Shown: positions 41,917 to 59,025 of the stretch, one piece after another
Position numbering within the stretch: the stretch's first letter is position 1
Layout of the letters: each line of letters opens with the position of its first letter
Assembly (NCBI RefSeq): GCF_001894925.1
Contig: NZ_BCXD01000004.1
Span: 1-64,000 of the forward strand
Direction of reading: 5' to 3'
Source: Rhodococcus rhodnii NBRC 100604
GTDB taxonomy: Bacteria; Actinomycetota; Actinomycetes; Mycobacteriales; Mycobacteriaceae
Length of the DNA: 64,000 nt
Notes under the pieces: generated by a model
What the model was told of the DNA's origin: nothing
Seen by the model: only the letters and a program-made list of their open reading frames with translations
Databases searched by the model: none
Program-made: the position numbers and the translations under genes

Positions 41917-43389
41917 ATGACGCAGCAGGAAACGCGGTGGATCCGCAACTTCGTGGACGGACGGTTCGTCGATCCCGTCGATGCCGAGGGATTCGACGAC
42001 ATCGATCCCGCCACCGGCCGCGTCGTGGCACGGGTCCACGAGGCGGACCGGGCGATCGTCGATCGCGCCGTGACGTCGGCACGGCGTGCACTCGCGGACT
42101 GGGCGGAGACCCCGGTGCGGGAACGGACGGCGCTGCTCCGCCGCGCCGCCGACCGCATCGAGGAGCGGTTCGACGAGTTCGTCGCCGCCGAGATCGCGGA
42201 CACCGGCAAGCCGCTGGTGCAGGCTCGTGACCTCGACGTTCCGCGGGCGATGGCGAACTTCCGCACGTTCGCGGACATCGTCGCGGCCGCCGGTCAGGAG
42301 TCGTTCGTCACCGAGATGGGTGGCGGCCGGCGGGCGCTGAACTACGCCGTCCGCAAGCCGCTCGGCGTCGTCGCGGTCATCGTGCCGTGGAACCTGCCGC
42401 TGCTGCTGCTCACGTGGAAGGTCGCGCCGGCCCTCGCGTGCGGTAACGCAGTCGTCGTCAAGCCCAGCGAGGAGACTCCCGCGACCGCGACGCTGCTGGC
42501 CGAGGTACTCGCCGAGGTCGGGCTCCCGGACGGCATCTACAACGTCGTCCACGGCTTCGGTGCGAACTCCGCGGGGGAGTTTCTGACGACGCACGACGGC
42601 ATCGACGGCGTGACGTTCACGGGCTCGTCCGCGACGGGCTCGCACGTCATGAAGACGGTCGCGCCACGCGTGCGGCCCGTCTCGTTCGAGCTCGGTGGCA
42701 AGAACGCCGCGGTCGTCTTCGACGACGTCGATCCCACCGAGGCGATGGACGGACTCGCGCGGGCGATCTTCACCAACACCGGCCAGGTCTGCCTGTGCAC
42801 CGAGCGGGTCTACGTGCAGCGCAGCATCTTCGACGACATCGCCGCGGGACTCGTCGAGCGTGCCCAGGCGCTGCGGCTCGGCGATCCGCTCGACGAGACG
42901 ACGACGACCGGACCGCTGATCTCGCGGGGACACCGGGAGAAGGTGCGGTCGTATCTCGCGCTCGCGGAGCAGGAGGGCGCGAAGGTCCTCACCGGCGGCG
43001 CGACTCCCGACCTCGGTGCCGATCTCGAAGGCGGCGCGTGGATCGAGCCGACGCTGTGGACCGGGCTGACGAACTCGAATCGCGTGGTTCGAGAGGAGAT
43101 CTTCGGGCCCGTCGCGGCGCTGATCCCGTTCGAGACCGAAGCCGAGGCGATCGCCCTCGCGAATGACACCGAGTATGGGCTCGCCGCGTCGGTGTGGACG
43201 AACGACATTCGGCGGGGCCACCGCGTCGCGCAGAGCATGAACGTCGGAATGTCGTGGGTCAACACGTGGTTCCTGCGTGACCTGCGGTCGCCGTTCGGCG
43301 GCATGGGCCTGTCGGGCATCGGGCGGGAGGGCGGCGAGTCGTCGCTGCACTTCTACACCGAGCCGACCAACGTGTGCGTCCAGTTGTGA
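41917..43389 (+). CDS. 2-aminomuconic 6-semialdehyde dehydrogenase
   Basis: NAD-dependent aldehyde dehydrogenase of 490 residues. The cofactor-site FTGSSATGS, Glu in FELGGKNAAVVF and catalytic C292 in GQVCLCTERVYV are intact. The C-terminal WVNTWFLRDLRSPFGGMGLSG...FYTEPTNVC segment is typical of the aminomuconic/hydroxymuconic semialdehyde subfamily (AmnC, NbaE, DmpC). The neighbouring decarboxylase, deaminase and dioxygenase genes select the aminomuconate reaction. ATG 41917 is preferred over GTG 41908. First gene of the operon. Confidence 0.9.
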   Translation: MTQQETRWIRNFVDGRFVDPVDAEGFDDIDPATGRVVARVHEADRAIVDRAVTSARRALADWAETPVRERTALLRRAADRIEERFDEFVAAEIADTGKPLVQARDLDVPRAMANFRTFADIVAAAGQESFVTEMGGGRRALNYAVRKPLGVVAVIVPWNLPLLLLTWKVAPALACGNAVVVKPSEETPATATLLAEVLAEVGLPDGIYNVVHGFGANSAGEFLTTHDGIDGVTFTGSSATGSHVMKTVAPRVRPVSFELGGKNAAVVFDDVDPTEAMDGLARAIFTNTGQVCLCTERVYVQRSIFDDIAAGLVERAQALRLGDPLDETTTTGPLISRGHREKVRSYLALAEQEGAKVLTGGATPDLGADLEGGAWIEPTLWTGLTNSNRVVREEIFGPVAALIPFETEAEAIALANDTEYGLAASVWTNDIRRGHRVAQSMNVGMSWVNTWFLRDLRSPFGGMGLSGIGREGGESSLHFYTEPTNVCVQL

Positions 43390-43432
43390 GCACCGCGAAC
43401 CCGAGTGAGCATCGAATGACGGAGAGGACCGC

Positions 43433-44233
43433 ATGACCAGCGAACAGCCCGATCGCCGCGCACTGCGCGACGAGCTCGCAGACGTGCTCGACGCCGCGCA
43501 GACCGGCGTGCGCGACGTCGAGAGCCTGTCGGACACGTCGGCCTTCGACCTGGACGACGCCTACGCGATCCAGGAGGCACTCACCGCGCGCCGGCTCGCG
43601 CGGGGCGAGCGACTCGTGGGAGTGAAGATGGGCTTCACGAGCCGCGCGAAAATGGCGCAGATGGGCGTCGCGGAGGTCATCGTCGGCCGGCTGACGGATG
43701 CGATGCACATCGGCGACGGCGGCGAGGTCGACCTCTCACGCTTCATCCACCCCCGCATCGAGCCCGAGGTCGCGTACCGCGTGGGCCCCGGATTCGATCT
43801 GTCCGATCCGGACAGCGACCTCGCCGAGCACGTCGACGCGATCGCTCCCGCGATGGAGATCATCGACTCGCGGTACCGCGACTTCCGGTTCACCCACGAG
43901 GACGTCGTCGCCGACAACACGTCGGCTGCCGCGTTCGTCGTCGGGCCGTGGCAGCCGGTGGTGGACGCCGCCGAGGCGGCCGTCCGCATCAGCGTGGGGG
44001 AGCAGGAGTCGACGGGTAGCACGGCCGCGATCCTCGACGACCCGATGAACGCGGTGCGCGAGGCACAGCGGATGTGCCGCAAGCGAGGCCTCGCGCTGGT
44101 GCCCGGCGACGTGGTGCTCGCCGGTGCCGCGACCGCGGCGCTGCCGCTCGGGCCCGTGCACGCCGAGTGCGAGATCGAGGGGCTCGGCACGGTCTCGGTG
44201 TCGGGTGTGCGCGGCCTGGAGGTGCAGTCGTGA
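43433..44233 (+). CDS. 4-oxalocrotonate decarboxylase
   Basis: Enzyme of the fumarylacetoacetase/hydratase-decarboxylase family (AmnE, NbaG, XylI type), 266 residues, releasing CO2 from 4-oxalocrotonate to give 2-oxopent-4-enoate. Conserved stretches [30 protein letters not shown] (metal-binding Glu pair) and [15 protein letters not shown] are present. The paralogous 2-oxopent-4-enoate hydratase is similar in sequence, so that activity is an alternative. It overlaps the deaminase gene by 4 bp. Confidence 0.87.
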
Positions 44234-44685
44234 GCGGCGGGCATCTCATCGAGGGACGCGCGAGACCGCGCGGACGGTTCCCGCACGTGAAGGTCGTCGG
44301 CGATCTCGTGTTCGTGTCGGGCACGTCGTCGCGCCGGCCCGACAACACCTTCGTCGGAGTCGAGGTCGACGAGCTGGGGACGACGAATCTCGACATCCGC
44401 GAGCAGACGCGCGCGGTGATCGAGAACATCGAGGGGATCCTCGGCGAGGTCGGCTGCGGACTGCAGGACGTCGCGCAGGTGACGACCTTCCTCGTGAACA
44501 TGAACGACTTCGGTGGCTACAACGCGGTGTATGCGGAGTACTTCGACGAGACCGGGCCCGCCCGGACGACCGTCGCCGTGCACCAGCTGCCGCACCCGCA
44601 TCTGCTCATCGAGATCCAGGCGATCGTGCATCTGCCCGCGAAGACGCAGGGCGACACCACACTTCGGACGACAGGAGACCAGTGA
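44230..44685 (+). CDS. 2-aminomuconate deaminase (RidA family)
   Basis: RidA/YjgF-family protein of 151 residues. In this setting it should hydrolyse 2-aminomuconate to 4-oxalocrotonate and ammonia, like AmnD and NbaF. The fold is visible in [38 protein letters not shown] and [22 protein letters not shown]. The Arg that general RidA imine deaminases use is replaced in a different local context, consistent with the specialised branch. GTG start; stop overlaps the HAAO ATG by one base. Confidence 0.88.
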
Positions 44686-45206
44686 TGACCGGACTGACGA
44701 AGCCGATCGACTTCGGCACGTGGATCGGCGAGAACGAGCATCTGCTCAAGCCGCCCGTGAACAACAAGACGATGCAGCTCGGCGACGACTTCATCGTCCA
44801 GGTGATCGGTGGCCCCAACCAGCGCACCGACTACCACGTCGACCCGTACGAGGAGTGGTTCCATCAGGTGCGGGGCGACATCGTCGTGCGCGTCATGACG
44901 GACGACGGGCCGCAGGACGTCCACATCCGCGAAGGCGAGACGTGGCTGCTGCCCCGGGACCTTCCGCATTCGCCGCAGCGTCCGGCGGAAGGATCGATCG
45001 GCATCGTCATCGAGCGGGTGCGCGAGGAGGGCACGCTGGAGAAGTTCCAGTGGTACTGCCTCGAGTGCAACGACAAGCTCCACGAGGTCGAACTGCAGGT
45101 ACGCGACATCGTCGTCGATCTTCCCGTCGTGTTCGAGAAGTTCTACGCCGACACCGACGCGCGCACGTGCGACGCGTGCGGTGCTCTGCATCCCGGAAAG
45201 GGCTGA
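44685..45206 (+). CDS. 3-hydroxyanthranilate 3,4-dioxygenase
   Basis: Non-heme iron ring-cleaving enzyme of 173 residues (HAAO, NbaC), opening 3-hydroxyanthranilate to 2-amino-3-carboxymuconate semialdehyde. The catalytic Fe ligands H51, E57 and H95 and substrate-binding R47, R99 and E110 fall at the numbering known from bacterial HAAO. The second, rubredoxin-like iron site C125/C128/C162/C165 is complete. This is the strongest functional marker of the operon. The next gene decarboxylates its product. Confidence 0.95.
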   Translation: MTGLTKPIDFGTWIGENEHLLKPPVNNKTMQLGDDFIVQVIGGPNQRTDYHVDPYEEWFHQVRGDIVVRVMTDDGPQDVHIREGETWLLPRDLPHSPQRPAEGSIGIVIERVREEGTLEKFQWYCLECNDKLHEVELQVRDIVVDLPVVFEKFYADTDARTCDACGALHPGKG

Positions 45207-45291
45207 CGTGGGCGCGGTCGACCGTGGTGGAACCGGCGTCGAGGGCACGGGCGTCGAGAGCGCCGATGCTTCGGGCACGGAGGTCACGAAC

Positions 45292-46275
45292 ATGATCGAC
45301 GTTCACACCCACTACGTCCCGAAGGGCTGGCCCGACCTCACCGCGGACGCCGGTACGGACGCGCCGTGGCTGAAGGTCGAGTCCGAGCGCGACGCCGTCA
45401 TCATGATGGGCACCAACGAGTTCCGGCGAATTTCGTCGGACGCGTGGTCCGCGGAGGTGCGTCTCGCGGACATGGATGCCGACGGCGTCGATGTGCAGGT
45501 GGTGTCGCCGACTCCGGCGTTCTTCAACTACGGCCGCAGCCCCGAGCAGGGTGCGCGGATCTCACGGATCTTCAACGATCTCGCTCTCGAGATCACGGCG
45601 CCCGCGCAGGATCGGCTCATCCCGTTCTGCCAGGTCCCGTTGCAGGACCCCGACGAGGCGTGCCGCGAACTCGACCGGTGCCTCGAGAACGGTCATCGGG
45701 GCGTGGAGATCGGAAACCACGTCGGCGACGCCGATCTCGACAGCGAAGGAATCGTGACGTTCCTGCAGCACTGCGCATCTCGCGGTGTTCCGGTGTTCGT
45801 CCATCCGTGGGACATGGACTCCTCGCCGCGCCTGAATCGCTGGATGGCGCAGTGGCTCACGGCGATGCCCGCCGAGACCCACCTGTCGATCCTCTCGCTC
45901 GTGCTCGGTGGCGTCTTCGATCGCATCGACGAGAGCTTGAAGATCGGATTCGCCCACGGTGGAGGATCTTTCGCGTTCTGGCTCGGCCGCATGGAGAACG
46001 CATGGCACGGCCGCAACGACGTGATCGGCACGTCCGAGTACCCGCCGTCGCACTACATGGGCCGGTTCTACGTGGATTCGGTCGTCTTCGACGAGCGTGC
46101 GTTGCGACTGCTCGTCGACACCGTCGGGGCCGAGCGCGTCATGGTCGGCAGCGACTATCCGTATCCGCTCGGTGAGCGACGGGTGGGGGACGTGGTGCGC
46201 AAGAGCGCCTTCCTCGATGCCTCGGCCCGCGAACTCGTCACACGGACCAACGCCGAGCGGTTTCTGGGGATCTGA
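45292..46275 (+). CDS. 2-amino-3-carboxymuconate-6-semialdehyde decarboxylase
   Basis: Amidohydrolase-family, zinc-dependent decarboxylase (ACMSD, NbaD) of 327 residues. Metal and catalytic residues are H5 and H7 in DVHTH, H171 in VFVHPWD, H222 in FAHGGG and D288 in GSDYPYPLGE. Without this enzyme the HAAO product would cyclise to quinolinate; with it the carbon goes to 2-aminomuconic semialdehyde and on through the operon. ATG 45292 is set by ACGGAGGTCACGAAC; GTG 45208 would add a low-complexity extension. Confidence 0.93.
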   Translation: MIDVHTHYVPKGWPDLTADAGTDAPWLKVESERDAVIMMGTNEFRRISSDAWSAEVRLADMDADGVDVQVVSPTPAFFNYGRSPEQGARISRIFNDLALEITAPAQDRLIPFCQVPLQDPDEACRELDRCLENGHRGVEIGNHVGDADLDSEGIVTFLQHCASRGVPVFVHPWDMDSSPRLNRWMAQWLTAMPAETHLSILSLVLGGVFDRIDESLKIGFAHGGGSFAFWLGRMENAWHGRNDVIGTSEYPPSHYMGRFYVDSVVFDERALRLLVDTVGAERVMVGSDYPYPLGERRVGDVVRKSAFLDASARELVTRTNAERFLGI

Positions 46276-46476
46276 CGGTTCCCCGGAGAAACCCGGTCGA
46301 CCGTCCCGGGATTCCGTCTGGGCAGCTCAGCTATTCCCATGGAGCATACGACCCCGATGATATCGCATTTGTCCGTATTGCCGGAACCGCGCATGCTGTG
46401 TGCCACGAGGATCAGCGTGGTCACGATCGACGTCGTGCAGACAGCGCGCCGACCCAACGAGATGTGAGAGTACCGA

Positions 46477-47283
46477 ATGGCAACAACGCTCGAGTCGAAC
46501 ACCGCGGCGATCACCGTCCGGGATCTGTCGATCACCTACACGCGTCCGACCGGAGGAACCGTCCACGCCGTCGACAACATCTCGTTCGACGTACGGCCGG
46601 GCGAGTTCCTCACGTTGATCGGACCGTCCGGTTGCGGAAAGAGTTCTGTCCTCCGCACTCTCGGCGGATTGCAGACGCCGTCGGCGGGCGACATCCGGTT
46701 GGGCGACGTCACGATCGACCGCCCCGTTCCGGACCGCATCTCGTACGTCTTCCAGGACTTCGCTCTGTTCCCGTGGCGGACGGCCCTGGCGAACGTCGAG
46801 ACCCCGCTCGAGATCCAGGGCGTACCCAAGAAGGAACGTCGCGAGCGCGCGATGAAGGTGCTCGAACAGGTCGGTCTCGAACGGTTCGCGGCGCAGTATC
46901 CCCACGAGCTGTCGGGCGGCATGAAACAACGCGTCGCCATCGCGAGAGCGCTCGTGACCGACTGTGACATTCTTCTCATGGACGAGCCGTTCGGTGCGCT
47001 CGACGAGCAGACCCGGCTCATGATCGGCGTCCAGCTCGTCGAGCTCCTCGAGAAGCTCAACAAGACCATCGTCTTCGTCACCCACAATCTGCAGGAAGCG
47101 GTCAATCTCTCCGACCGTGTGCTGGTGTTCTCGAAGCCGCCGTCGGTCGTTCGTGACGTGGTCGAGGTCGATCTTCGGCGGCCGCGGCGATTCGAGGACA
47201 TGAACTCCGAAGAGTTCATGAGCATCCAGCGGTCGCTCTTCTCGCTCCTCTACGAGACGGAGTCCGCGGAGCGTGCGGTATGA
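46477..47283 (+). CDS. ABC transporter ATPase (SsuB/TauB type)
   Basis: ATPase of 268 residues for an importer of the nitrate/sulfonate/taurine type. Walker A is G49-PSGCGKS, Q-loop FQDFALFPW, signature L145-SGGMKQ and Walker B LLMDEP (D169-E170) with H in FVTHNL. It overlaps the first permease by 4 bp. A 200-bp gap separates it from the aminomuconate operon, so it may have its own promoter. Import of an aromatic amino acid or carboxylate is inferred from the neighbours. Confidence 0.93.
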   Translation: MATTLESNTAAITVRDLSITYTRPTGGTVHAVDNISFDVRPGEFLTLIGPSGCGKSSVLRTLGGLQTPSAGDIRLGDVTIDRPVPDRISYVFQDFALFPWRTALANVETPLEIQGVPKKERRERAMKVLEQVGLERFAAQYPHELSGGMKQRVAIARALVTDCDILLMDEPFGALDEQTRLMIGVQLVELLEKLNKTIVFVTHNLQEAVNLSDRVLVFSKPPSVVRDVVEVDLRRPRRFEDMNSEEFMSIQRSLFSLLYETESAERAV

Positions 47284-48038
47284 GGTCGTTCGTACGCTCC
47301 ACGGGTGGCCTGATCGTCGTTCTGGCACTGCTGATTCTCGGCGTGTGGACGGCGATCACCGCGAGCGGCATGGTCAGCCCGTTCAATCTTCCGGGCCCCG
47401 CGGTGGTCGGATCCGAGTTCGTCGCCGTGATGGGCGAATCCAGCACGTACAGCAACGTTCTCGTGACGCTGTTCGAGTTGTTCGTGGCCTTCGGCGCAGC
47501 TGCGCTCGCCGGTGTCGCGACGGGGCTCGCGGTCGGCGCGTCGCGACTGCTGCGCGAGGCCTACGAGCCGCTGCTGAGCAATCTCAACTCGATTCCCTTC
47601 ATCGTGCTGTACCCCGTCATCACCCTGACGCTCGGAATCGGCGTCGAATCGAAGATGGTCTTCGCCTTCCTCTGTGCCTACTTCCCGATCGCGATCGGTG
47701 CGACGACGGCAGTCGCAGGCGTCGACCCGACCCTGGTCGCCGCCGGCCGCGCGATGGGCGCGCGAGGACTGACCCTCGCTCGCAAGGTGCGGTTTCCCGC
47801 GGTCAAGGAGAAGCTCGTCGGATCGCTCCGCATGGGTCTGACGATCGCCCTCATCGCCGTGATCGGCGCCGAATACATCGCGGGCAGTCAGGGACTCGGC
47901 TACATGATCGCGAGCTCGGGGCAGATGTTCGACATGCCCCGCGTGATCGCGTACGTGCTGGTGACTCTCGTCGTCGCCTTCGTTCTGGACTGGGCCGGGC
48001 GTCTCGCAGGTGGAAAGAAGGTCGTCTCGAATGTCTAG
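47280..48038 (+). CDS. ABC transporter permease 1 (SsuC/TauC type)
   Basis: Permease of 252 residues with about six TM helices. The cytoplasmic coupling EAA loop is seen in VAAGRAMGARGLTLARKVRFPAV. The start overlaps the ATPase stop by 4 bp and the end overlaps the second permease by 8 bp. Two distinct permease genes suggest a heterodimeric channel, less usual for this family, where one permease gene is normal. Confidence 0.9.
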   Translation: MRSFVRSTGGLIVVLALLILGVWTAITASGMVSPFNLPGPAVVGSEFVAVMGESSTYSNVLVTLFELFVAFGAAALAGVATGLAVGASRLLREAYEPLLSNLNSIPFIVLYPVITLTLGIGVESKMVFAFLCAYFPIAIGATTAVAGVDPTLVAAGRAMGARGLTLARKVRFPAVKEKLVGSLRMGLTIALIAVIGAEYIAGSQGLGYMIASSGQMFDMPRVIAYVLVTLVVAFVLDWAGRLAGGKKVVSNV

Positions 48039-48870
48039 CACCGTCACGACGTCCGCGGCACCCGCCTCGACGCCCCGCGCCGGCGGCTCCCGTCCACGGA
48101 AGGGCCTGCACCGGTCCAGCACTCCACTGCTCATCAGGTACGGCACTCTCGCTGCAGTCGTGGTGTTGTGGGAACTGCTGGTCCGGATGGGCGACAGTTC
48201 CGGTGGCCTGCTCGTCGCGGCACCGACCGAGGTCCTCACCGCCCTTCCGGGGGTGATCGAGGACAGCGCGGTGATGTCCGCCCTCGGAACCGGGCTCGTC
48301 CAGTACCTCGCAGCGATGGCGGTGATCATCGTTCTCGGCGTCGCGGTCGGCATGCTCTTCGGCCAGCTCGGGGCGATGTTCGAGCCGGTCCGCAACGTTC
48401 TGCAGCTGGCGTTCGCCGTTCCGCAGGTCGCGATCTCCCCGCTTTTCATCGTCTGGCTCGGAGTCGGCTTCGCGTCCAAGTTCACGTACGGCATCACGCA
48501 GGGCATCATTCCGGTCCTGATCGGCATGATGACCGCCGCGAAACTGGTCGATCGCTCGGTGCTCGACAGCGCGCGTTCGATGGGCGCGAGCTCGTCGTGG
48601 CGGCTGCGCAACGTCGTGCTCCCCGCGGTCGTTCCCGATGCCGTCTCGAACATCCGCATCGCCTCGAAGCTCTGTCTGCTCGGAATCCTCCAGGCAGAGC
48701 TGATGGTCTCGACCGCGGGCATCGGATCCGTGATCCGGCAGCTGTCGACGACCTTCCAACCCGATCGGCTCTACGCCACGGTGCTGCTGGTCTGCGTGGC
48801 CGCGGTCCTCATCAACTCCGCGCTGGGTTGGTGTGAGACGCGAGCGTCGAAGTGGCGCGGCCACCAGTGA
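48031..48870 (+). CDS. ABC transporter permease 2 (SsuC/TauC type)
   Basis: Second permease of 279 residues. A Pro/Arg-rich cytoplasmic N-terminus (about 1-40) precedes six TM helices; the EAA loop is in DSARSMGASSSWRLRNVVLPAVVPD. ATG 48031 lies inside the first permease gene. The stop codon falls in the first unit of an 18-bp tandem repeat that runs toward the binding-protein gene. Confidence 0.9.
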   Translation: MSSTVTTSAAPASTPRAGGSRPRKGLHRSSTPLLIRYGTLAAVVVLWELLVRMGDSSGGLLVAAPTEVLTALPGVIEDSAVMSALGTGLVQYLAAMAVIIVLGVAVGMLFGQLGAMFEPVRNVLQLAFAVPQVAISPLFIVWLGVGFASKFTYGITQGIIPVLIGMMTAAKLVDRSVLDSARSMGASSSWRLRNVVLPAVVPDAVSNIRIASKLCLLGILQAELMVSTAGIGSVIRQLSTTFQPDRLYATVLLVCVAAVLINSALGWCETRASKWRGHQ

Positions 48871-48932
48871 CCGAGACGCCGCCAGTGACCGAGACGCCAC
48901 CAGGGACCGACCGACCGCCGGTGACCAAGAAA
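48861..48932 (+). repeat. Four imperfect 18-bp tandem repeats at a gene junction
   Basis: Units at 48861, 48879, 48897 and 48915, based on CCACCAGTGACCGAGACG, with growing divergence to the right. The permease stop codon is in unit 1. Read in the frame of the binding protein they would code for PPVTETPPVTET-type sequence, but the ribosome site and lipobox indicate translation starts after them. Confidence 0.85.
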
Positions 48933-48944
48933 CTAGGAGAACCC

Positions 48945-49925
48945 ATGAAGAGCACACTCTCTCGGACGCTGGCGGTGACGACGTCGGCACTCGCCGTCAC
49001 CCTCGTCGCGGCGGCCTGCGGCAACGGTGGCGAGTCGGGCGACGGCTCGTCGATCCGGCTGGGCATGAACGTCGATCAGGCCTTCGACATCGCGGTGACG
49101 CCGAAGATCGCAGAGGAGGTCGGATGCTTCGAGGCCGAAGGCCTCGACGTCTCGCTGGTCTCGTTCAACGGCGGCTCCGAAGCCGTCCAGGCGCTCTCGT
49201 CCGGCGCAGTGGACGTGAACTCCGGCAACGGATTCGACGTCCCCTCGGCGGTGGCGAAGGGTCTGGACATCAAGGCGTTCAGCGGCATCGCGCAGGAGAG
49301 CTCGTTCGTGATCATCGCGAGTCCCGACGGCGACGTGCAGTCCCTCGAGGATCTTGCCGGAACGAGCGTGGGAATCAGCCGATTCGGGTCCACACCCGAC
49401 TACGTCGTGCGGCAGGCGTCCGCGGCGATCGGTGGAGCCGACATCGAGGCGGTGCCGCTCGGTGGTCTCGCCGAGAACCAGGCGGCACTGAGCCGTGGTG
49501 ACGTCGACGCCTTCGTCTGGACGGTCGAGGTCGGCACCAACCTCAAGGAGCAGGGAGCGGGGCGTGTCATCGCGTCCGCGAGCGACTTCATCGAGAACGA
49601 TCAGCACGCGGCCCTGATCGCGACGCAGTCGTGGCTCGACGGCAATCCCGAGGCAGCCGAGTCGCTGGCGTCCGCGTACGGGTGCGCGATCGACTGGATG
49701 CAGGACCCCGAGAACCGGGACCGTGCCGTCGAACTCACGACCGGCTACCTGGGGCTCGATCCCGCTGTGGCCGAGCGTGTCTACGATCTGCGCACCCCCG
49801 CCCTGACGCCCGACGGCAGCATCGATGCGGCGGGTCTCGAGACACTGTCGAACGCCCTGCCGGAGCTCGGCCTAGCGGATACGTCACCTGCGGTCGACGA
49901 TCTCTACGTGAGCAACGAGAATTGA
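48945..49925 (+). CDS. ABC transporter substrate-binding lipoprotein
   Basis: Binding protein of 326 residues of the NMT1/SsuA type. A signal peptide ends in a lipobox with C25 (LVAAAC), so the mature protein is membrane anchored. The fold is visible in IRLGMNVDQAFDIAVTPKIAEEVGCFEAEGLDV, SGAVDVNSGNGFDVPSAVAKG and LAGTSVGISRFGSTPDYVVRQA. ATG 48945 has CTAGGAGA upstream. Ligand unknown; the setting suggests an anthranilate-like or related N-aromatic compound. Confidence 0.92.
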   Translation: MKSTLSRTLAVTTSALAVTLVAAACGNGGESGDGSSIRLGMNVDQAFDIAVTPKIAEEVGCFEAEGLDVSLVSFNGGSEAVQALSSGAVDVNSGNGFDVPSAVAKGLDIKAFSGIAQESSFVIIASPDGDVQSLEDLAGTSVGISRFGSTPDYVVRQASAAIGGADIEAVPLGGLAENQAALSRGDVDAFVWTVEVGTNLKEQGAGRVIASASDFIENDQHAALIATQSWLDGNPEAAESLASAYGCAIDWMQDPENRDRAVELTTGYLGLDPAVAERVYDLRTPALTPDGSIDAAGLETLSNALPELGLADTSPAVDDLYVSNEN

Positions 49926-49961
49926 CGACGCCCGCACGGGGTCGGGTACCGAGGAGAGACG

Positions 49962-51998: not shown

Positions 51999-52056
51999 GA
52001 GATTGCGACGATTTGAGATTGCGCGATCGAGAGTGCGCGATCGAGAGTGCGACGTC
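51999..52056. repeat. Four short tandem repeats at the ThDP gene 3' end
   Basis: Units of 14-16 bp (GAGATTGCGCGATC type) start at 51999, 52015, 52029 and 52043. The last reaches the stop codon of the ThDP enzyme on the minus strand. They lie between that gene and the LysR gene and could be an operator array or slippage product. Confidence 0.75.
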
Positions 52057-53683
52057 AGTGCCCGAATGCCTCCACGAGCCACCACGACCCTTCGTTCGAG
52101 ACCGTCTTCGCGTCGACGACGAGCGGACGTGCCGGTTCCGCGTCGAGCCAGGTCTTGACGGCGGCGAGGTCCTCGCGGCGACGCACCGTCAGCGAGTCGC
52201 ACCCGAAGCCCTTCGCGATCGCCGCGATGTCGGTGTCGGGGAAGGTGACGGTCGTGAGGTCCTCGTCGCCCGTGAAGTGATGCACCTCGGCGCCGTACTG
52301 CGAGTCGTTGTAGACGATCACGAGCAGCGGCAGTCCGAGCCGCACCGCCGTGTCGAGTTCGGAGATTCCCATGAGGAAGCCGCCGTCGCTGCACCCCGCG
52401 ACCGGAAGCCGAGTCGGTTGCGCGAGGGCCGCCCCGATGGCCGTCGCCAAGCCGAGCCCGACGGACTGGAAGGCCTGTGTGAAGCAGAAGCCGTACTCGT
52501 CGGGAACGTCGAGGAACATGCTGGGGAAGCCGAGAAAGTTGCCCGAGTCCACCGACACGACGCGTTCGGCCGGCAGCATGGTGTCGATCTCGGAGGTCAG
52601 GATGCGCGGGTCGATCTCGGTCTCGGTACTCGCGTCGGTGTACGGAACGTCGTTCCAGCGCAGTCCGGTTCGGATGCGCTCGGCGATCTCGGACGTCCGG
52701 TAGCCGGTGCGGGAGATGTGCCCGAGTGCCGTCGTCGCGGCGTGCGCGGTCTCGGCGATGCCGCCCCACAGGCCGAGATCGATCGGGCGCGTCCGGCCCA
52801 GCGCGGCAGGATCGAGGTCGACCTGGACGACGCGGGCGTCGTCGCCGATCAGTTTGCCGTGACGCATCGTCCACATGTTCAGCGCGCAACCCCAGCCGAC
52901 GATCAGGTCGGCGTCCGAGATGAGCTCGGCGGCGAGCGGCGTCGAGAAGCCGCCGGAGACGTCGATGCTCCAGTCGTGTTCGCGGAACATGCCTTTGGAG
53001 ACCGCCGAGGTGGCCAGCAGGGCGCCGGTGCGGTCGGCGAGTGCCGCGAGCGCTTCCTTCGCGCCGGCCGACCGCGCGCCGCGGCCTGCGACGAAGACCG
53101 GCCGCTCGGCTGTCGTGAGGAGTTCGACGAGTTGCGCGAGTTCGCCGTCGGACGGGCGCGGAAGCGCGACGTCGACGACGCGAGGCGCGACCTGGTCGTC
53201 GGGCAGCAGTTCGTCCTGCACGTCGATCGGAACGTTGAGCACGACGGTCCGGCCCTGTGCGGCGAGCCGGTACGCTTCGGTGACGTCCGCGACGGCGGAG
53301 GCTGCCGAGCGCACTCGCACCGTACGGGCGCCGAGGCCCTCGGCGATGGCGGCCTGGTCGATGAAGAAATTCGACATCGGCGTCGTCGCCTCGGCCGTGA
53401 CGACGAGCAACGGGGTGTTGCTCTTCGCTGCCTCGGCGACGCCCGTGAGCGAGTTGGTGTACCCGCATCCCTGGTGCAGCGACAGGACGGTGACCTCGCC
53501 GCTCATCCGTGCGTAGCCGTCGGCCATGCTCGCGGCGCCGCCTTCGTGGCGAGCGGCGACGAAACGGCCACCGGCGGCGGTGAAAGCGTTGGTGTAGTGG
53601 AAGTTTCCGCTGCCGACCACACCGAAGGCGGTCCGGACACCCAGTTCGTGCAGTGTCCTGCCGATGGCGTCGCGTACGTACAT
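52055..53683 (-). CDS. Thiamine diphosphate-dependent enzyme (acetolactate synthase/benzoylformate decarboxylase-like)
   Basis: ThDP enzyme of 542 residues with the usual three domains. The cofactor-activating Glu is E47 in RHEGGAASMADGYAR. The ThDP/Mg motif is in GCSDGGFLMGISELDTAVRLG to YNDSQYG near 405-440. It is not clearly an AHAS, as no small-subunit gene lies near; decarboxylation or carboligation of a 2-oxo acid is expected. The ATG overlaps the cyclase stop by one base. With an isatin-hydrolase-like neighbour, an isatinate-type 2-oxo acid is a candidate substrate (inference). Confidence 0.85.
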   Translation of the reverse strand: MYVRDAIGRTLHELGVRTAFGVVGSGNFHYTNAFTAAGGRFVAARHEGGAASMADGYARMSGEVTVLSLHQGCGYTNSLTGVAEAAKSNTPLLVVTAEATTPMSNFFIDQAAIAEGLGARTVRVRSAASAVADVTEAYRLAAQGRTVVLNVPIDVQDELLPDDQVAPRVVDVALPRPSDGELAQLVELLTTAERPVFVAGRGARSAGAKEALAALADRTGALLATSAVSKGMFREHDWSIDVSGGFSTPLAAELISDADLIVGWGCALNMWTMRHGKLIGDDARVVQVDLDPAALGRTRPIDLGLWGGIAETAHAATTALGHISRTGYRTSEIAERIRTGLRWNDVPYTDASTETEIDPRILTSEIDTMLPAERVVSVDSGNFLGFPSMFLDVPDEYGFCFTQAFQSVGLGLATAIGAALAQPTRLPVAGCSDGGFLMGISELDTAVRLGLPLLVIVYNDSQYGAEVHHFTGDEDLTTVTFPDTDIAAIAKGFGCDSLTVRRREDLAAVKTWLDAEPARPLVVDAKTVSNEGSWWLVEAFGH

Positions 53684-54498
53684 CAGTTCTGTTCTCCGTT
53701 CGTGTCGTCAGCGGCGTCGACCAGTGCGAGGACGCGGGCCGGGCTGCCGGTGCCGCCGACGATCTTCAGCGGCGCCACGATCAGCACGGCACCGGTCGCG
53801 GGCAGCTCTGCGAGGTTCTGCAGCTGTGTGGCGCCGTAGCGGCCGCTGCCGAGCAGGAAGGAATGGGCCGGGAACGGCGGATCGAACCGGAACGCCTGGC
53901 CGGCGTCGGTGCCGACCGTCTCGACGCCGAGGCCGACCATGCCCGTCTCCTCGGCCAGATATCGGGCGCAATCGACCGAGATGCCGGGTGTGTGCGGCCC
54001 GTTCTCGTCGGCGTTGATGAAGGCGGTCTGGTCGTGCGAGCGCTCGTTCCATCCGGTTCGGTACAGCAGCCATCCACCGGCGGGCAGCGGCCCGTGCGTC
54101 TCCTGCCATGCGAGCAGATCGTCACGGGTGAGTAGATAGTCCGGATTCGCGGTGCACTCCGCGACCCGGTCGATCACGACCGCGGGTGCCACGAGCTTCT
54201 CCGGAGCGATGCTCGCGACGTCCTCGAGATCGCGGCCCGAATGCCAGTGAATCGGGGCATCGACGTGGGTACCGGTGTGTTCGCCGGTGTGGATCCCGTG
54301 CTGCATCGAGATCTCGCCCTCGTCGTCGTAGTACGCGAGCGGCTCGAGAGCGAATCGGGGGATCGGCGCCATCTCGGGCGGCAGCGGTAACACGGGAGTC
54401 GCGTGCGACAGCGATGCGGTCAGGTCGACCACCCGGACGGTTCCGGCGGTCAGAGCGGCAGCGAGGTCAGCAGATCCGATACTCGAGGTGGGAAGCAT
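53683..54498 (-). CDS. Cyclase-family metal hydrolase (isatin hydrolase/kynurenine formamidase-like)
   Basis: Protein of 271 residues in the cyclase family of Mn/Zn amide hydrolases. The family motif HxGTHxDxPxHW is complete: H74, T77-H78, D80, P82, H84, W85. Length (about 260-275) is nearer to isatin hydrolase than to bacterial kynurenine formamidase (about 210). The first would give isatinate from isatin, the second kynurenine from N-formylkynurenine; either could lead to anthranilate-type compounds. No strong ribosome site is seen at ATG 54498. First gene of the run with the ThDP enzyme. Confidence 0.85.
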   Translation of the reverse strand: MLPTSSIGSADLAAALTAGTVRVVDLTASLSHATPVLPLPPEMAPIPRFALEPLAYYDDEGEISMQHGIHTGEHTGTHVDAPIHWHSGRDLEDVASIAPEKLVAPAVVIDRVAECTANPDYLLTRDDLLAWQETHGPLPAGGWLLYRTGWNERSHDQTAFINADENGPHTPGISVDCARYLAEETGMVGLGVETVGTDAGQAFRFDPPFPAHSFLLGSGRYGATQLQNLAELPATGAVLIVAPLKIVGGTGSPARVLALVDAADDTNGEQN

Positions 54499-54739
54499 GG
54501 ATACATAGTCGGGCCGACTCGCGCGAAGCGCTAATGCTGGGTTTCGGGGTCGCTATGCGCCGATCGACATACCGGGCGAGAACCGGTGTCCCGTGGCCTA
54601 TGCCGAGAATGCGATACCGGCCCGTGGAATGGGCATTAGCCAGCACCTGCGCTGCGGATCACGATTGCAGTCACCAAAACCGGCGCTCCGACGACGCTGC
54701 GAACGGTTTCGTTTCCACAGTGTAAACGAGGGAGTTTTC

Positions 54740-56212
54740 ATGAGCGAAACAATCCCCGCGAAAGTGACCGATTCCACTGGAGGCAGATCGCTGCGGTCCG
54801 TCATCGAGGATCACGCACTCGCCCCGGTACCCGAGTCCAGCCGGCGCAGCGGATGGGGCCTCGCGTTCAACACCGCCGGCGTCGGGACGACCCTGATCAT
54901 CCTCGCGATCGGCAGCGGGGTCACCTACGTCGCCGGCACCAAGTGGGGCATCGCGATGGGAGTCGTCGCCGCGGTCTTCGGGACGCTCCTGGGATGGGGG
55001 ATCGGCCACGTCTGCCAGGTCGCGGGGACCTCTTCCACCGTGACCAGTCGCTTCTACGGACTCGGTGCGCGCGGCTCCGCGCTCGCGTCGGTCATCTTCG
55101 CGTTCATGTGCCTCGGCTTCCTGGCGCTCGAGAACGCCCTGCTCTACTACGGCACGCTGTTCATGTTCGGCTGGGCGCCGACGACGCTCAACGCGATCGT
55201 CATCTACGGGATCCTCACGATCGCCTGGATTCTGCTCACCACCTTCGGGCTCTCCCTCGTCCAGCGGACGTCGACGATCCTCACGATCGCGTCGGTGGTT
55301 CTCATCGGCGCCGTGACAGTGATCGCGTTGAGCCGCAGCGACATCGGGGTCGCCGAGATCTGGGCGTACTCGCCGCCGAATCTGTCGATGGGCGACATCA
55401 CGGCAGGGCTGGCGGCGATCGCCGGCATCGCCGGCGCGCTCGCGCTGACGGGCGCGGACTTCGGCCGCTTCGCCCGGACGTCGAAGGACGTCGGCATCAT
55501 GTCCGTCGTCGGCTCGATCATCGTCAACGTTCTCGTCGTCATCGTGGGAACGCTGATCTTCCAGGCCGGCAACTCGGTCGTGACGGGATTTCTGCAGGAC
55601 CCGGCGAACGCCGACGTCGCGGCGACCCAGGCGGGCGCCACCACCGCCGAGAAGCTCGACTTCATGGCGCACTCGAACGCCGGCGCGTACTTCATCGTGC
55701 TGGCCGGCGCCGTCGGCTTCCTCGTCATGTACGCCGCGCAGGCGAAGGCGCAGGTGATCAACACCTACTCGAGTTCGCTTGCACTCAGCAATCTCTCGGA
55801 TGCTGTGGTCCGGCGGAGCCCGGGAAGATTCTGGATGGTGATCGCGGGCAACGTGATCGGCCTCCTCGCGATCATGGGAGACATCCTCGGGCTCATCAAC
55901 AGCTGGCTCGGCATTCTCGGCATCCTCACGACCTCGCTGTGCACTCTGGTCATCGTCGACTATTTCGTCGTGCGTCGCCGGACGCCGGCGGCAGCGGATC
56001 GCGTCGAGAACGTCAACATTCCGGGCGTCGTCGCGCTGGTGGTCTCCTCGCTCGTCGCCTACATCGCGACCCAGACGGGGGTGACCCCTCTCGGGTTCGC
56101 CGTCGCACTCGTCCTCACCGCCGTTCTCTATGTCGGACTGCGACGTGTCGTCCCCGAAGGTCGCTGGGGCGGCTTCGCCGACGCCCGCGAGGCGCTGCGG
56201 GACGAGGAGTAG
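54740..56212 (+). CDS. NCS1-family permease (purine/cytosine/allantoin type)
   Basis: Secondary transporter of 490 residues with about 12 TM helices after a 35-residue cytoplasmic N-terminus. Typical NCS1 features are GWGLAFNTAGVG at the first helix and ALALTGADFGRFARTSKDVG in the middle. The family imports nucleobases, hydantoins and related N-heterocycles by Na+ or H+ symport. ATG 54740 has GAGGGAG upstream. It diverges from the cyclase gene, and the 240-bp gap should carry both promoters. Ligand not determined. Confidence 0.9.
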   Translation: MSETIPAKVTDSTGGRSLRSVIEDHALAPVPESSRRSGWGLAFNTAGVGTTLIILAIGSGVTYVAGTKWGIAMGVVAAVFGTLLGWGIGHVCQVAGTSSTVTSRFYGLGARGSALASVIFAFMCLGFLALENALLYYGTLFMFGWAPTTLNAIVIYGILTIAWILLTTFGLSLVQRTSTILTIASVVLIGAVTVIALSRSDIGVAEIWAYSPPNLSMGDITAGLAAIAGIAGALALTGADFGRFARTSKDVGIMSVVGSIIVNVLVVIVGTLIFQAGNSVVTGFLQDPANADVAATQAGATTAEKLDFMAHSNAGAYFIVLAGAVGFLVMYAAQAKAQVINTYSSSLALSNLSDAVVRRSPGRFWMVIAGNVIGLLAIMGDILGLINSWLGILGILTTSLCTLVIVDYFVVRRRTPAAADRVENVNIPGVVALVVSSLVAYIATQTGVTPLGFAVALVLTAVLYVGLRRVVPEGRWGGFADAREALRDEE

Positions 56213-56280
56213 AACGTACAGACCGATTCGATCGACAGGCGATAGCACCCGGACCGGGTGCGGCTCGAAAGGAAACAACC

Positions 56281-57414
56281 ATGGCACGCGCGATCACGGC
56301 CGACACCGGCTTCAAACTGGGAACCTTCTCGTCGAACTGTTCGAGCGGTATGGCGATCACCAAGGCGCCGAACCGCTGGTCGGCCAGCTGGGCGGACAAC
56401 CTCCGGCTCGCGAAGACGGCCGATGCCGTCGGGCTCGACTTCATGCTGCCGATCGCGCGGTTCATCGGATACGGCGGCGACACCAACTTCCACGAGTCGG
56501 TGCTCGATCCGGTCGCGTGGGCGGCGGGACTGCTCTCGGCCACAGAGAACATCACGGTGTTCTCCACCGTCCATTCCGCGTTCAACCATCCCCTCGTCGT
56601 GGCCAAGCAGCTCGCGACCGTCGATCACATCGGCAACGGCCGTGCCGGCATCAACATCGTCGCCGGCTGGAACAAGCCGGAGTACGACGCGATGGGATCG
56701 GATCTTCCTGCGGGGCACGACGATCGCTATGCCCAGGCGCAGGAGTGGTGGGACATCATCCGCAGGGTGTGGACGCAGCCCGGGACCTTCGACCACGATG
56801 GCCGCTTCTATCGACTGAAGGGAGCCGAAGGGCTGCCCAAGCCGGTCGACGGTGTCCTGCCCGTGCTCAACGCCGGATCGTCCGCGCAGGGAAGGGGATT
56901 CGCCGCGCGCAACGCGGACTACGGGTTCACCGTGGCCGACGGGCCGGAGGACGGCGCGAAGATCGTCGAGTCGATGCAGTCGCAGGCGCTCGCCGAGTTC
57001 GAGCGGCAGCTCGGCGTGTTCACCATGGCGCACATCGTCGTTCGAGAGACGGAGAAGGAGGCGCGCGACTTCTACCGGTGGTACGCCGACGACAACGCCG
57101 ACTGGGACGCCGTCGACAACATCATGTATCTCATGGGTGCGCACGCACAGTCGTTCACGCCGGACATGTTGCAGACCTATCGTTCGCGCTTCGCGGCGGG
57201 ACACGGGTCGATCCCGATGGTCGGCACCCCCGACCAGGTCGCCGAACTGATCGCGGGAATCGCGAACGCCGGCTTCGCGGGGATGACGCTCGCGTTCTTC
57301 GATTACGCTGAGGAACTGCCGTACTTCGGGGAGACCGTGTTGCCGCGTCTCGAGGAGATGGGTGTGCGGGCACCCCGTGAGCGGGCGACACGCCTGGCCG
57401 GCGCAGGCGTCTGA
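56281..57414 (+). CDS. FMN-dependent luciferase-like monooxygenase (RutA/SfnG type)
   Basis: LLM-class flavin monooxygenase of 377 residues. Stretches TFSSNCSSG, FMLPIARFIGYGGDTNFHESVLDP, HIGNGRAGINIVAGWNKPEYDAMG and the C-terminal VGTPDQVAELIAGIANAGFAGMTL match the RutA/dimethylsulfone monooxygenase branch. RutA oxidises uracil by a flavin-N5-oxide route. ATG 56281 is preceded by GAAAGGAAA. A partner flavin reductase is not found in the window. Together with the NCS1 permease it points to an N-heterocyclic or sulfur-containing substrate. Confidence 0.9.
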   Translation: MARAITADTGFKLGTFSSNCSSGMAITKAPNRWSASWADNLRLAKTADAVGLDFMLPIARFIGYGGDTNFHESVLDPVAWAAGLLSATENITVFSTVHSAFNHPLVVAKQLATVDHIGNGRAGINIVAGWNKPEYDAMGSDLPAGHDDRYAQAQEWWDIIRRVWTQPGTFDHDGRFYRLKGAEGLPKPVDGVLPVLNAGSSAQGRGFAARNADYGFTVADGPEDGAKIVESMQSQALAEFERQLGVFTMAHIVVRETEKEARDFYRWYADDNADWDAVDNIMYLMGAHAQSFTPDMLQTYRSRFAAGHGSIPMVGTPDQVAELIAGIANAGFAGMTLAFFDYAEELPYFGETVLPRLEEMGVRAPRERATRLAGAGV

Positions 57415-57434
57415 CCGAGGGAACGGCGCAGCAC

Positions 57435-59025
57435 GTGATGGATGTCGATGTCGCTGTGGTGGGTTCGGGAATCAACGGCCTGGTTGCCGCCGCCGAACTC
57501 GCCCGTGCCGGGCTGGCCGTCGCGGTGATCGAGCGCGGCAGCGAGCTCGGCGGCTTCATCGCCTCCGGCGAATCGACCGTGCCCGGCTTCGTGCACGACA
57601 CCTTCTCGTCGTGGCATCCGATGTTCGTATCGGGGCCCGCGTACGCGAGCCTGGGTGATGCGCTGCACGACGCAGGCCTCGACTACGCGAACTCGCCGGA
57701 CCTGGTGTGCGCGACAGTCGGCGACGACGACCGGACGGTACTGGCATATCGCGACGTCGAGCGGACGGTCGAGGGGTTCGCCGCGTCGCGGGGCCGGGAC
57801 GCGTACCGCCGGATGCTCGACGTCGCGGCAGCGCGCAGTGGCGTCGTGCTCGGTGCGCTCGGCTCCGAACTCGACGGGCGTTCATCGGCACTGCTCGCGG
57901 CCCGCGCGGTGCGTAGCCTCGGTATGCGGGGTGTCCGTGATCTGGCCCGCGATGCCGTGTCGTCGGGGCACGCTCTGCTGCGTCGCAGCTTCGACGGGTG
58001 GGAGCCCGATCTGTTGTGGTCGCCGTGGCTGCTGCATGCGGGGCTCGCGCCCAGCGTGGCGTCGGGCGGCGTGATGCTGCCGGTGATGGCCGCGACGATG
58101 CACGAGTTCGGTCTTCCCGTCGTCCGCGGGGAGCGGGGCGTTTCGTCGCCGCGTTCGAGGCCGTGCTCGCCGATCACAGCGCTGTCGTGCTGCGGGGACG
58201 GACCGCGGAGCGGATCGAGGTGGGCGCGGGGCGTGTGCGCCGCGTCCACCTCGACGACGGCACGGTGGTGTCGGTGCGACGGGCCGTCGTGGCCGGGGTG
58301 TCCCCGCGGGCGCTGTACGACGGTCTTCTCGCGCCGGGCGTTGCCGATCGTGTCGTCTCGCGCGATGCGGTGCGCCGACATCGGCCGGGTCGCGCGGCGA
58401 TGCAGATCCACCTCGCGCTCGATGCGCCGATCCCGTGGCGCGACGAGCGCCTCGGCGACTGTCCGCTCGTCCATCTTTCCGACGGTGCAGTAGCGACGGC
58501 GCTCGCGTGCGCCGAAGCCGAGGCGGGCTGCTGCCGCGGCGGGCGACGGTCGTCGTCGGCCAGCAGCACGTGATCGATCCGTCGCGCGTTCCCGAGGGCC
58601 GAGGCTCGGCGTGGATTCAGTTGCAGGAAGTTCCTTTTCGTCCCCGGGGCGATGCAGCAGGCGAACTGGACACGTCGGTCGGCTGGACACCGGGGCTCAC
58701 CGCTGCCTACACCGATCGGATCGTGGCGCGTATCGAGCAGTACGCGCCTGGATTGTCGGCGAGCGTCATCGGTGTCCATGCGATCTCGCCGGCGGAACTC
58801 GAACGGCGCAATCCGAACGCCGAGTACGGCGATCCGTACGGCGGCTCGGCGGAATTGGACCAGAATCTCGTGTTCCGTCCGTTCCCGGGTGCGCATCGGC
58901 ATCGGACGGCGGTTCCCGGCCTCTGGCATGTCGGCGCGTCCACACACCCGGGCCCCGGGCTCGGGGGCGGATCGGGTCACCTCGCCTCGAGCGACATCCT
59001 GCGATGCCACCGGCGGGAGCGTTAG
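57435..59025 (+). pseudogene. FAD-dependent oxidoreductase (CrtI/phytoene-desaturase-like), two frameshifts
   Basis: The N-terminal part in one frame has the FAD loop GSGINGLVAAAELARAG. At the G-run 58128-58131 the homology moves frame (VVRG to GAGRFVAAFEAV), and at 58525-58527 it moves again (ACAEAEA to GLLPRRATVVVG), with a normal C-terminus to 59025. Each break is cured by one extra G, giving 530 residues, a normal length for the family. Sequencing error in G-runs is as likely as true decay. GTG 57435 or ATG 57438 is the start. Role in the catabolic operon unknown. Confidence 0.85.

Follow-up and report, generated by a model that had tools for sequence, protein, structure and literature searches.

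A Rhodococcus rhodnii island that joins an isatin-hydrolase relative with a changed pocket to a complete 3-hydroxyanthranilate module: a candidate route from ring-hydroxylated isatins

Bacteria that degrade tryptophan or 2-nitrobenzoate convert 3-hydroxyanthranilate (3-HAA) to 2-oxopent-4-enoate with a module of 3-hydroxyanthranilate 3,4-dioxygenase (HAAO), ACMSD, 2-aminomuconate semialdehyde dehydrogenase (AMSDH), a RidA deaminase and a decarboxylase, and this module is fed by kynureninase or by a nitroreductase/mutase route. Here we analyse 64,000 nucleotides of Rhodococcus rhodnii NBRC 100604 (contig NZ_BCXD01000004.1, positions 1 to 64,000; hereafter the window), in which the same module shares an island with a relative of the isatin hydrolases (the cyclase) and a thiamine diphosphate (ThDP)-dependent enzyme, by which, unlike in those degraders, it is apparently fed. 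According to the available text of a 2018 review on indole, the 3-HAA branch of anthranilate breakdown proceeds via a hydroxylase, which is a different route; isatin hydrolase genes occur in many strains, and their functional identification is worth investigating (PMC6221969). Among open-access titles and abstract openings, we found none describing a pathway from an isatin hydrolase and a ThDP enzyme to 3-HAA.

Isatin-type intermediates also figure in the iad auxin locus of Variovorax and Bradyrhizobium, where IadI is annotated as a kynurenine formamidase; an acyl-CoA ligase, a thiolase-fold protein and an ABC importer, all named in the available text on that locus, are a further likeness to the sister clusters described below (PMC9613470, PMC12633357). 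In that pathway, compounds with the formulas C8H7NO3 and C7H7NO were seen, and the proposal is that they come before anthranilate (PMC12633357, available sections); the formulas fit isatinate and aminobenzaldehyde, a naming that is ours and not that of the paper. The systems differ in that the Rieske oxygenase IadCDE is not in the island, whose end point would be 3-HAA/aminomuconate rather than anthranilate; the window moreover has a changed cyclase pocket and is missing the ligase and thiolase-fold protein. Actinobacterial 2-aminobenzoyl-CoA clusters, for example on a Tsukamurella plasmid, likewise hold an isatin-hydrolase relative and a CrtO-like FAD oxidoreductase, but their cyclase has a tryptophan-lined (Trp-type) pocket, and in three loci an indolepyruvate:ferredoxin oxidoreductase replaces the ThDP enzyme.

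The reading we favour, and hold with about even confidence, is that the island forms a single funnel in which a remodelled cyclase would open a ring-hydroxylated isatin, the ThDP enzyme would decarboxylate the product and oxidation would give 3-HAA, without anthranilate as an intermediate. In the simplest case, the cyclase would open the lactam of 7-hydroxyisatin to 2-amino-3-hydroxyphenylglyoxylate, which the ThDP enzyme would decarboxylate to 2-amino-3-hydroxybenzaldehyde, as benzoylformate decarboxylase does with its own substrate; an aldehyde dehydrogenase would then yield 3-HAA, and HAAO, ACMSD, AMSDH, the RidA deaminase and the decarboxylase would carry this to 2-oxopent-4-enoate. Since the C7 hydroxyl of isatin would become the C3 hydroxyl of the aminobenzaldehyde, no anthranilate hydroxylase would be required. 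All substrates and products named here are predicted from sequence.

The proposal is built on enzyme families, catalytic residues, a changed pocket, a clade and a pattern of co-occurrence, each of which is shown by the sequences. The four best PDB matches of the cyclase are isatin hydrolases (5nmp, 5nnb, 5nna and 4j0n; E 5e-74 to 3e-69), and homology to 5nmp spans residues 11–261, the whole chain (E 4.9e-74). The preliminary description of this DNA, which had called the protein isatin-hydrolase/kynurenine-formamidase-like, thus holds as to family. We compared the pockets of eight cyclases linked to 3-HAA genes with those of 36 other cyclase rows; the eight represent seven different sequences (G285 and G308, by our genome labels, are identical, and G319 is four residues apart). 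Residues H74, H78, D80, H84, D198 and H212 are kept in all eight linked rows and in 36/36 others, and include the counterparts of LaIHA H69, H73 and D75, which we take to be the metal site. In the available text on LaIHA, D193 and H207 form an Asp-His dyad, and Trp59 and Trp61, together with W80 and Y204, stack on isatinate (PMC6117287). The island cyclase thus resembles the isatin hydrolases LaIHA, LaIHB and RsIHA in family, metal site, dyad, Trp80/Trp84 and an aromatic residue at 204/209, but their Trp59/Phe63 and Trp61/Trp65 are Ser and Gln.

This change sets the linked cyclases apart. The Trp59 position is Ser in 8/8 linked rows and Trp in 36/36 others; the Trp61 position is Gln in 8/8, against Trp (32) or His (4); and the Phe38 position is Met in 8/8, against Phe in 36/36. 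The Trp80 position is unchanged, and the aromatic at 204 is Phe in 8/8 linked rows. Two of the four stacking aromatics are therefore kept in the window cyclase (W85, F209) and two are lost (S64, Q66), while the Ile32 and Leu34 positions stay aliphatic (Leu and Leu in the window). Support for a clade of the eight linked cyclases is 100/99, and the remodelled cyclases as a whole, 16 distinct rows, form one clade with 100/100 in a tree of 65 rows, 21 of which were picked from the best 80 loci of a scan of named genomes. Nine of these 80 loci have a changed pocket (eight Ser/Gln; one, L103 of Actinomadura fibrosa, Ala/Gln) and 71 have Trp/Trp. The pocket change speaks against plain isatin as the substrate. 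In the tree, the cyclases of L043/L106 and L044 fall close to the remodelled clade; they are 63–66% identical to that of the window and have a Trp-type pocket and a divergent ThDP enzyme (48–50%).

The partner of the cyclase is equally constant. In a search for gene order, a ThDP enzyme adjoins the cyclase in all of the best 30 of 49 places, our own included; the same holds for 38/44 wider loci and, at 300 bits, for 71/80 of the best named loci, some of which are cut by contig ends. Six wider loci lack it, and three of these (G191, G066 and the Tsukamurella plasmid) carry an indolepyruvate-type 2-oxo acid:ferredoxin oxidoreductase instead, although the G191 and Tsukamurella cyclases are near-identical, so that these count as two cases, not three. 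Oxidoreductases of this type stand near Trp-type cyclases at L069 9577-12759, L035 ~9674-12856, L038 ~7398-10399 and in L167. Isatinate is 2-aminobenzoylformate, a 2-oxo acid, and both kinds of partner belong to enzymes that use 2-oxo acids; the ThDP enzyme would thus act on one, and the ferredoxin enzyme that apparently replaces it may turn isatinate straight into 2-aminobenzoyl-CoA. S25, E47 and H70, which may correspond to the catalytic Ser, Glu and His (S26, E47 and H70) of benzoylformate decarboxylase, are kept in the window and in the rows with letters there, in an alignment that contains no benzoylformate decarboxylase; the score against that family is 157 bits, with a cut-off of 493. 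The eight linked ThDP enzymes again form a clade (SH-aLRT 100), and residue 75, near His70, is Tyr or Phe in 7/7 linked rows with letters there, versus Leu or Val in 30/30 others. The cyclase/ThDP pair is also widespread in Actinomycetota without 3-HAA genes nearby (L001-L062, L100-L179). We regard the pair as a candidate for a general unit converting isatin to aminobenzaldehyde, with the ThDP enzyme as isatinate decarboxylase.

Co-occurrence of the two halves was assessed in three sets of genomes. The order search covered 200 genomes (cyclase at E<=1e-30, HAAO over its cut-off) and found the cyclase in 46/200 and HAAO in 33/200. The search of the host's family covered 401 genomes with 83 cyclase places (ACMSD at E<=1e-80, counted by hand): the six best cyclase places, our own included, all have ACMSD within 20 kb, compared with one of the other 77, and the two genes, present together in 25 genomes, lie within 20 kb in 7/25. 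Among the sampled genomes of the host's own genus, the combined block was found in the host only. A first scan of named genomes with a single-sequence query gave no relatives; the contigs were then searched with the cyclase clade alignment alone and the best 80 loci kept, though more exist. HAAO or ACMSD lies in the stretch examined in 4/9 remodelled loci versus 0/71 others (Fisher p 8e-5), and a ligase with a thiolase-fold protein in 5/9 versus 0/71 (p 5e-6). This set partly overlaps the first (L108 repeats G405, and L109 closely resembles Nonomuraea gerenzanensis); without L108 the figures are 3/8 (p 7e-4) and 4/8 (p 5e-5). Over all 16 remodelled loci, HAAO or ACMSD occurs in 11, the ligase/thiolase-fold pair in 11 and an MBL-fold hydrolase in 5.

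The 3-HAA module and the cyclase/ThDP pair recur together in R. erythropolis R138, Nonomuraea, five genomes of the window's family and Actinomadura fibrosa. On the R138 plasmid pLRE138, about 23 kb hold AMSDH, the decarboxylase, RidA, HAAO, ACMSD, LysR, an alcohol dehydrogenase and a second aldehyde dehydrogenase, and also a CoA ligase, a zinc ribbon, a thiolase-fold protein, an ABC importer, the ThDP enzyme, the cyclase, a LysR and MBL. In Nonomuraea gerenzanensis the set is the same but lacks MBL, and ligase and zinc ribbon are fused into one protein. In A. fibrosa, 15.6 kb contain a flavin reductase (PF01613), a luciferase-like flavin monooxygenase (LLM, 77%), an NCS1 permease (76%), LysR, the cyclase (68%), the ThDP enzyme (69%), ACMSD (48%), HAAO (55%), RidA, the decarboxylase, a second gene of that fold, AMSDH, MBL (41%) and, by eye, an MFS-like transporter, and a homologue of the window's FAD gene begins at the contig edge. 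The composite seen in the window is thus not unique. The preliminary description had proposed conservation of the modules as one block as a check, and this was borne out in part: they recur together in distant actinobacteria, which disposes of the objection that they are only ever found apart, and each also occurs alone. Because they recur elsewhere, the gene sets are more than a chance assembly; a chance neighbourhood was considered and thought unlikely given the clades and the co-occurrence.

The gene list of the island was re-derived by fresh calling of open reading frames (ORFs) and Pfam/NCBIfam scans, and genes of the sister loci were called with a codon-usage gene caller. The host genome is a 4.46-Mb draft in 70 contigs, and the G+C content of the window is 70%. 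The island comprises a plus-strand run (41908-50855) from AMSDH through the importer to MBL, a minus-strand run of cyclase, ThDP enzyme and LysR, and a second plus-strand run from 54740, as follows:

41908-43389, plus strand: AMSDH (TIGR03216, 756 bits, cut-off 693; alternative ATG at 41917)
43433-44233, plus strand: 4-oxalocrotonate decarboxylase-like protein of the FAA_hydrolase fold (PF01557, 30 bits; TIGR03218, 176 bits, below the cut-off of 350)
44230-44685, plus strand: RidA-family protein, proposed 2-aminomuconate deaminase (PF01042, 94 bits)
44685-45206, plus strand: HAAO (PRK13264, 257 bits, cut-off 220)
45292-46275, plus strand: ACMSD-like Amidohydro_2 protein, ACMS decarboxylase-like (PF04909, 132 bits; no NCBIfam match)
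46477-49925, plus strand: ABC importer, four genes, assigned by Pfam/NCBIfam
46477-47283, plus strand: importer ATPase
47280-48038 and 48010-48870, plus strand: importer permeases
48852-49925, plus strand: importer binding protein of the SsuA/NMT1 type
49962-50855, plus strand: MBL-fold hydrolase (PF00753, 84 bits; HLHADH motif; PDB 4o98, E 3e-26)
50878-51855, minus strand: LysR regulator, of a type found beside 3-HAA modules
52055-53683, minus strand: ThDP-dependent enzyme, proposed (hydroxy)isatinate decarboxylase (three TPP Pfam domains)
53683-54498, minus strand: cyclase of the isatin-hydrolase family, remodelled clade (S64, Q66; 5nmp, E 4.9e-74)
54740-56212, plus strand: NCS1-family permease (PF02133, 28.7 bits for the ORF from 54593, cut-off 23.5)
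56281-57414, plus strand: LLM, a relative of SfnG and RutA (PF00296, 187 bits)
57438-59025, plus strand: CrtO/phytoene-desaturase-like FAD oxidoreductase, interrupted (matches run through three consecutive frames)

To the right, 59022-60733 encode a YCII-domain protein and a sigma factor carrying DUF6596, which do not seem to belong to the pathway. No convincing flanking repeats of a mobile island were found within 40000-61500, and tRNA and Rfam scans of the window gave no match.

All genes named in the preliminary description are thus present, with the FAD oxidoreductase broken across three frames, and the 3-HAA module it had called complete (HAAO, ACMSD, AMSDH, deaminase and decarboxylase) was recovered as such. 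HAAO and AMSDH exceed their NCBIfam cut-offs, the decarboxylase and deaminase fall below theirs, and ACMSD is assigned by Pfam and synteny only. AMSDH is 81–84% identical in seven other modules (G319, G285, G308, G313, G483, R138 and G278) and less so in G405 (70%) and Nonomuraea (68% and 58%). RidA is 70–75% identical in eight sister modules and 76% in G278; HAAO is 76% identical to that of R138; and the decarboxylase-like protein has a 58% homologue in R138 annotated as 4-oxalocrotonate decarboxylase. ACMSD follows HAAO at 80–83% identity in G319, G285, G308, G313, G483 and R138, 64% in G405 and 51% in Nonomuraea. The N. gerenzanensis cluster holds two HAAO genes (L074 29600-30133 and 37548-38090), 72% and 50% identical to that of the window. 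The 2-oxopent-4-enoate hydratase, aldolase and acetaldehyde dehydrogenase are not in the island, to which this search was confined; they are annotated beside a Streptomyces module and, by eye, could be made out next to the G313 and G483 modules.

Relatives of the MBL protein include methyl parathion hydrolase, dihydrocoumarin hydrolase, AidB and N-acyl homoserine lactone (AHL) lactonases, and in the proposed funnel it may free the substrate from a lactone, ester or carbamate. Of the remodelled loci, 5/16 have it, and the 36 and 71 Trp-type loci all lack it. G278 has the left half by itself (AMSDH to ACMSD, MFS, MBL and LysR, with no cyclase nearby) and equals the left half of the window, with MFS replacing the ABC importer. 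Because of this arrangement, MBL and the window LysR seem to belong with the 3-HAA half. The regulator is 63% identical to the LysR of G278, and 54% to the R138 LysR beside ACMSD versus 45% to the R138 LysR beside the cyclase. That one LysR controls both halves is plausible.

At the other end, the window and A. fibrosa would share a head made up of the NCS1 importer and LLM, with the FAD oxidoreductase beside them. The NCS1 permease has a 76% homologue in A. fibrosa and no PDB match at E 0.001. LLM scores below both curated cut-offs (SfnG, 197 of 383 bits; RutA, 160 of 498 bits); its PDB matches include 8t0u (E 2e-42) and RutA (E 4e-35), and the 77% homologue in A. fibrosa adjoins the PF01613 flavin reductase. 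No single frame is open throughout the FAD gene at 57438-59025: the G066 homologue matches 57447-58175, 58130-58534 and 58441-58944 in three different frames, whereas relatives in L037, L035, L069 and L107 each give a single uninterrupted match. Sequencing error and decay would look the same in this assembly. G066 itself carries LLM (61%) and the FAD gene near a Trp-type cyclase, with no CoA genes in the stretch examined.

A second kind of head is seen in sister clusters, seven of which have a CoA ligase and a thiolase-fold protein; distant relatives of the two (34–51%) lie near a cyclase on Roseibium and Shinella plasmids. For the R138 thiolase-fold protein, 9myr (Sal) is first and 6ok1 (Ltp2) third of six PDB matches below E 1e-15, and its small neighbour matches the ChsH2 zinc ribbon (zf-ChsH2, 31 bits, cut-off 23). 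The available text on these steroid side-chain aldolases gives the motif as YDHF in Ltp2 and YDCY in Sal (PMC12329534). The sister proteins have YDDY, of the Y-D-x-[YF] form, in 4/4 cases, and GGAS at the position expected for the thiolase Cys. The sister clusters thus resemble Ltp2-DUF35 and Sal-Shy in PDB matches, motif and, in R138, the zf-ChsH2 partner, but no hydratase domain was seen in the sister protein, and the window has no such protein. An R138-type head would combine the CoA ligase with an Ltp2/Sal-like retro-aldolase, mostly with a zinc-ribbon partner, which fits an acetate side chain leaving as acetyl-CoA.

In the host genome we looked for enzymes that might feed 3-HAA by other means. 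The absence of kynureninase, reported earlier for the island, extends to the whole genome, where the sole match scored 32.7 bits against a cut-off of 246.4 and lies within a class-V aminotransferase of another kind (SufS-like by eye). Tryptophan dioxygenase, likewise reported as absent, is missing from the island, but a candidate for it, a protein over the PF03301 cut-off (140.5 bits, cut-off 34.9; profile middle missing), stands on contig C17, where a DUF6875 domain precedes the dioxygenase-type domain and an aminotransferase-like gene lies beside it (L080 7513-8778). The kynurenine route was set aside, as no kynureninase exceeded the cut-off, and so was an aminobenzoyl-CoA route, since aminobenzoyl-CoA monooxygenase/reductase gave only partial matches to the fusion protein and no full-length one in the genome. 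No HpaB-type anthranilate 3-hydroxylase was found in the whole genome and no Rieske gene among the island ORFs, to which that scan was confined. The preliminary description had led from isatin through isatinate and anthranilate-type compounds to 3-HAA; its detour via anthranilate is disfavoured by the lack of HpaB and by the loss of two isatin-stacking tryptophans, which is not proof. Its interpretation is otherwise supported in the isatin-hydrolase family, the ThDP pairing and the 3-HAA linkage.

Several points weigh against the funnel. Its weakest point, as far as 7-hydroxyisatin is concerned, lies in the oxygenases around sister clusters. These are, in G405 at ~4 kb past ACMSD, Rieske pieces together with a beta subunit of the ring-hydroxylating type (L091 1569-2870); LLM and a flavin reductase 2–5 kb past ACMSD, with a 2Fe-2S reductase upstream, in G313 (L090 10861-13047, L089 4141-5175); a 2-oxoglutarate-Fe(II) oxygenase ~3 kb from the cyclase in G319 (L084 6396-7451); and an aromatic-ring FAD hydroxylase ~9 kb from the cyclase in Nonomuraea (L074 8190-9779). 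The window LLM could itself be a hydroxylase, and our search of the host genome for hydroxylases covered the HpaB and aminobenzoyl-CoA types. The tryptophan-dioxygenase-family protein leaves room for a kynurenine route with an unrecognised kynureninase. The pocket change speaks for a different fit without specifying an added group; another substituent, or a ring that is not an isatin, would be compatible with it too. The window has a single aldehyde dehydrogenase, which is also needed for aminomuconate semialdehyde, and the broken FAD gene may mean that the head is partly dead in this strain. The window is also without the ligase and retro-aldolase, the best thiolase match in its own genome being 29%. 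As to linkage, five of the eight linked rows (G319, G285, G308, G313 and G405) were chosen since ACMSD is near; the order search found no cyclase/HAAO pair within 20 kb except in the host genome; neither HAAO nor ACMSD lies in the stretch examined in 5/16 remodelled loci; and in G483 the cyclase found within 20 kb of ACMSD is Trp-type and adjoins aminobenzoyl-CoA genes, and is probably an unrelated neighbour. An inverted-repeat scan for a shared operator found nothing common to the promoters of the two halves.

The oxygenases also count in favour of a competing route, somewhat unlikely in our judgement. Here the cyclase would open plain isatin to isatinate, the ThDP enzyme and an aldehyde dehydrogenase would take this on to anthranilate, and either LLM or an enzyme from another part of the genome would add the hydroxyl of 3-HAA. 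The cyclase does belong to the isatin hydrolase family, its pairing with the ThDP enzyme is conserved, and some Trp-type cyclases stand near 2-aminobenzoyl-CoA genes, so that anthranilate is a likely product there. Plain isatin, however, would not require the loss of two isatin-stacking tryptophans in the very clade that is linked to 3-HAA genes, and HpaB is absent from the genome. The oxygenases vary in type from one sister cluster to the next; this makes them look like neighbours or head enzymes, each a possible first step of its own pathway, and not like a single 3-hydroxylase common to all. In G313, HAAO is the only oxygenase in the run from the aldolase to ACMSD, which includes a ligase, a thiolase-fold protein, a transporter, the ThDP enzyme, the cyclase and LysR, several of these genes being named by eye.

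Alternatively, two independent pathways lie side by side, the 3-HAA module being fed through MBL and the importer while cyclase, ThDP enzyme, NCS1 and LLM lead to another end product. The cyclase-free G278 arrangement is consistent with this, as are 33 other actinobacterial cyclase loci without HAAO in the stretch examined and HAAO modules without a cyclase in a Streptomyces plasmid and JS3073. We nevertheless think it improbable, since in several families of Actinomycetota co-occurrence is tied to a single clade of cyclases and a single clade of ThDP enzymes, unlike what chance neighbours would show. We give still less credence to the idea that the remodelled cyclase is a C-C or C-N hydrolase for another ring, like the dihydrophloroglucinol cyclohydrolase of the same superfamily. 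In its favour, the superfamily has shifted to another substrate in that case, the enzyme having, in the available text, Trp and Tyr in place of isatin hydrolase Ile32 and Leu34 (PMC10470551). Here, however, these positions are Leu and Leu, the protein closely resembles isatin hydrolases (E 5e-74), and its ThDP partner depends on a 2-oxo acid, which the opening of isatin provides. Very unlikely, finally, is a benzoxazolinone pathway of the kind encoded by bxd in Microbacterium, with MBL as its key enzyme. There, BxdA, annotated as an N-acyl homoserine lactonase, opens 6-methoxybenzoxazolinone (MBOA) according to the available text (PMC11297187); the window MBL is related to AHL lactonases, and the window has an aminomuconate-type tail. 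The aminophenol derived from MBOA, however, lacks the ring carboxylate on which HAAO and ACMSD depend, and cyclase and ThDP enzyme would have no role.

Returning to the funnel, its boldest extension, which we put forward tentatively, is a pathway, so far undescribed, by which actinobacteria would degrade ring-hydroxylated indoles, among them plant auxin catabolites such as 7-hydroxy-2-oxindole-3-acetate, with the R138-type clusters and the window as two entries. In R138-type clusters, the acid would be imported, activated with CoA and oxidised at C3, and a retro-aldol split of the 3-hydroxy-oxindole-3-acetyl-CoA would yield acetyl-CoA and an isatin, here 7-hydroxyisatin, which would pass through the cyclase and ThDP enzyme to 3-HAA. 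The window would admit 7-hydroxy(ox)indoles without the acetate side chain, via the NCS1, LLM and FAD enzymes. We infer this side-chain reading from gene content.

For the Actinomycetota at large, the hydrolase and the ThDP enzyme are offered here as a two-gene unit, in which a residue signature, two tryptophans versus Ser and Gln, would predict which product follows. If the auxin reading is true, root bacteria would be able to feed on the compounds with which the plant itself ends its disposal of auxin.

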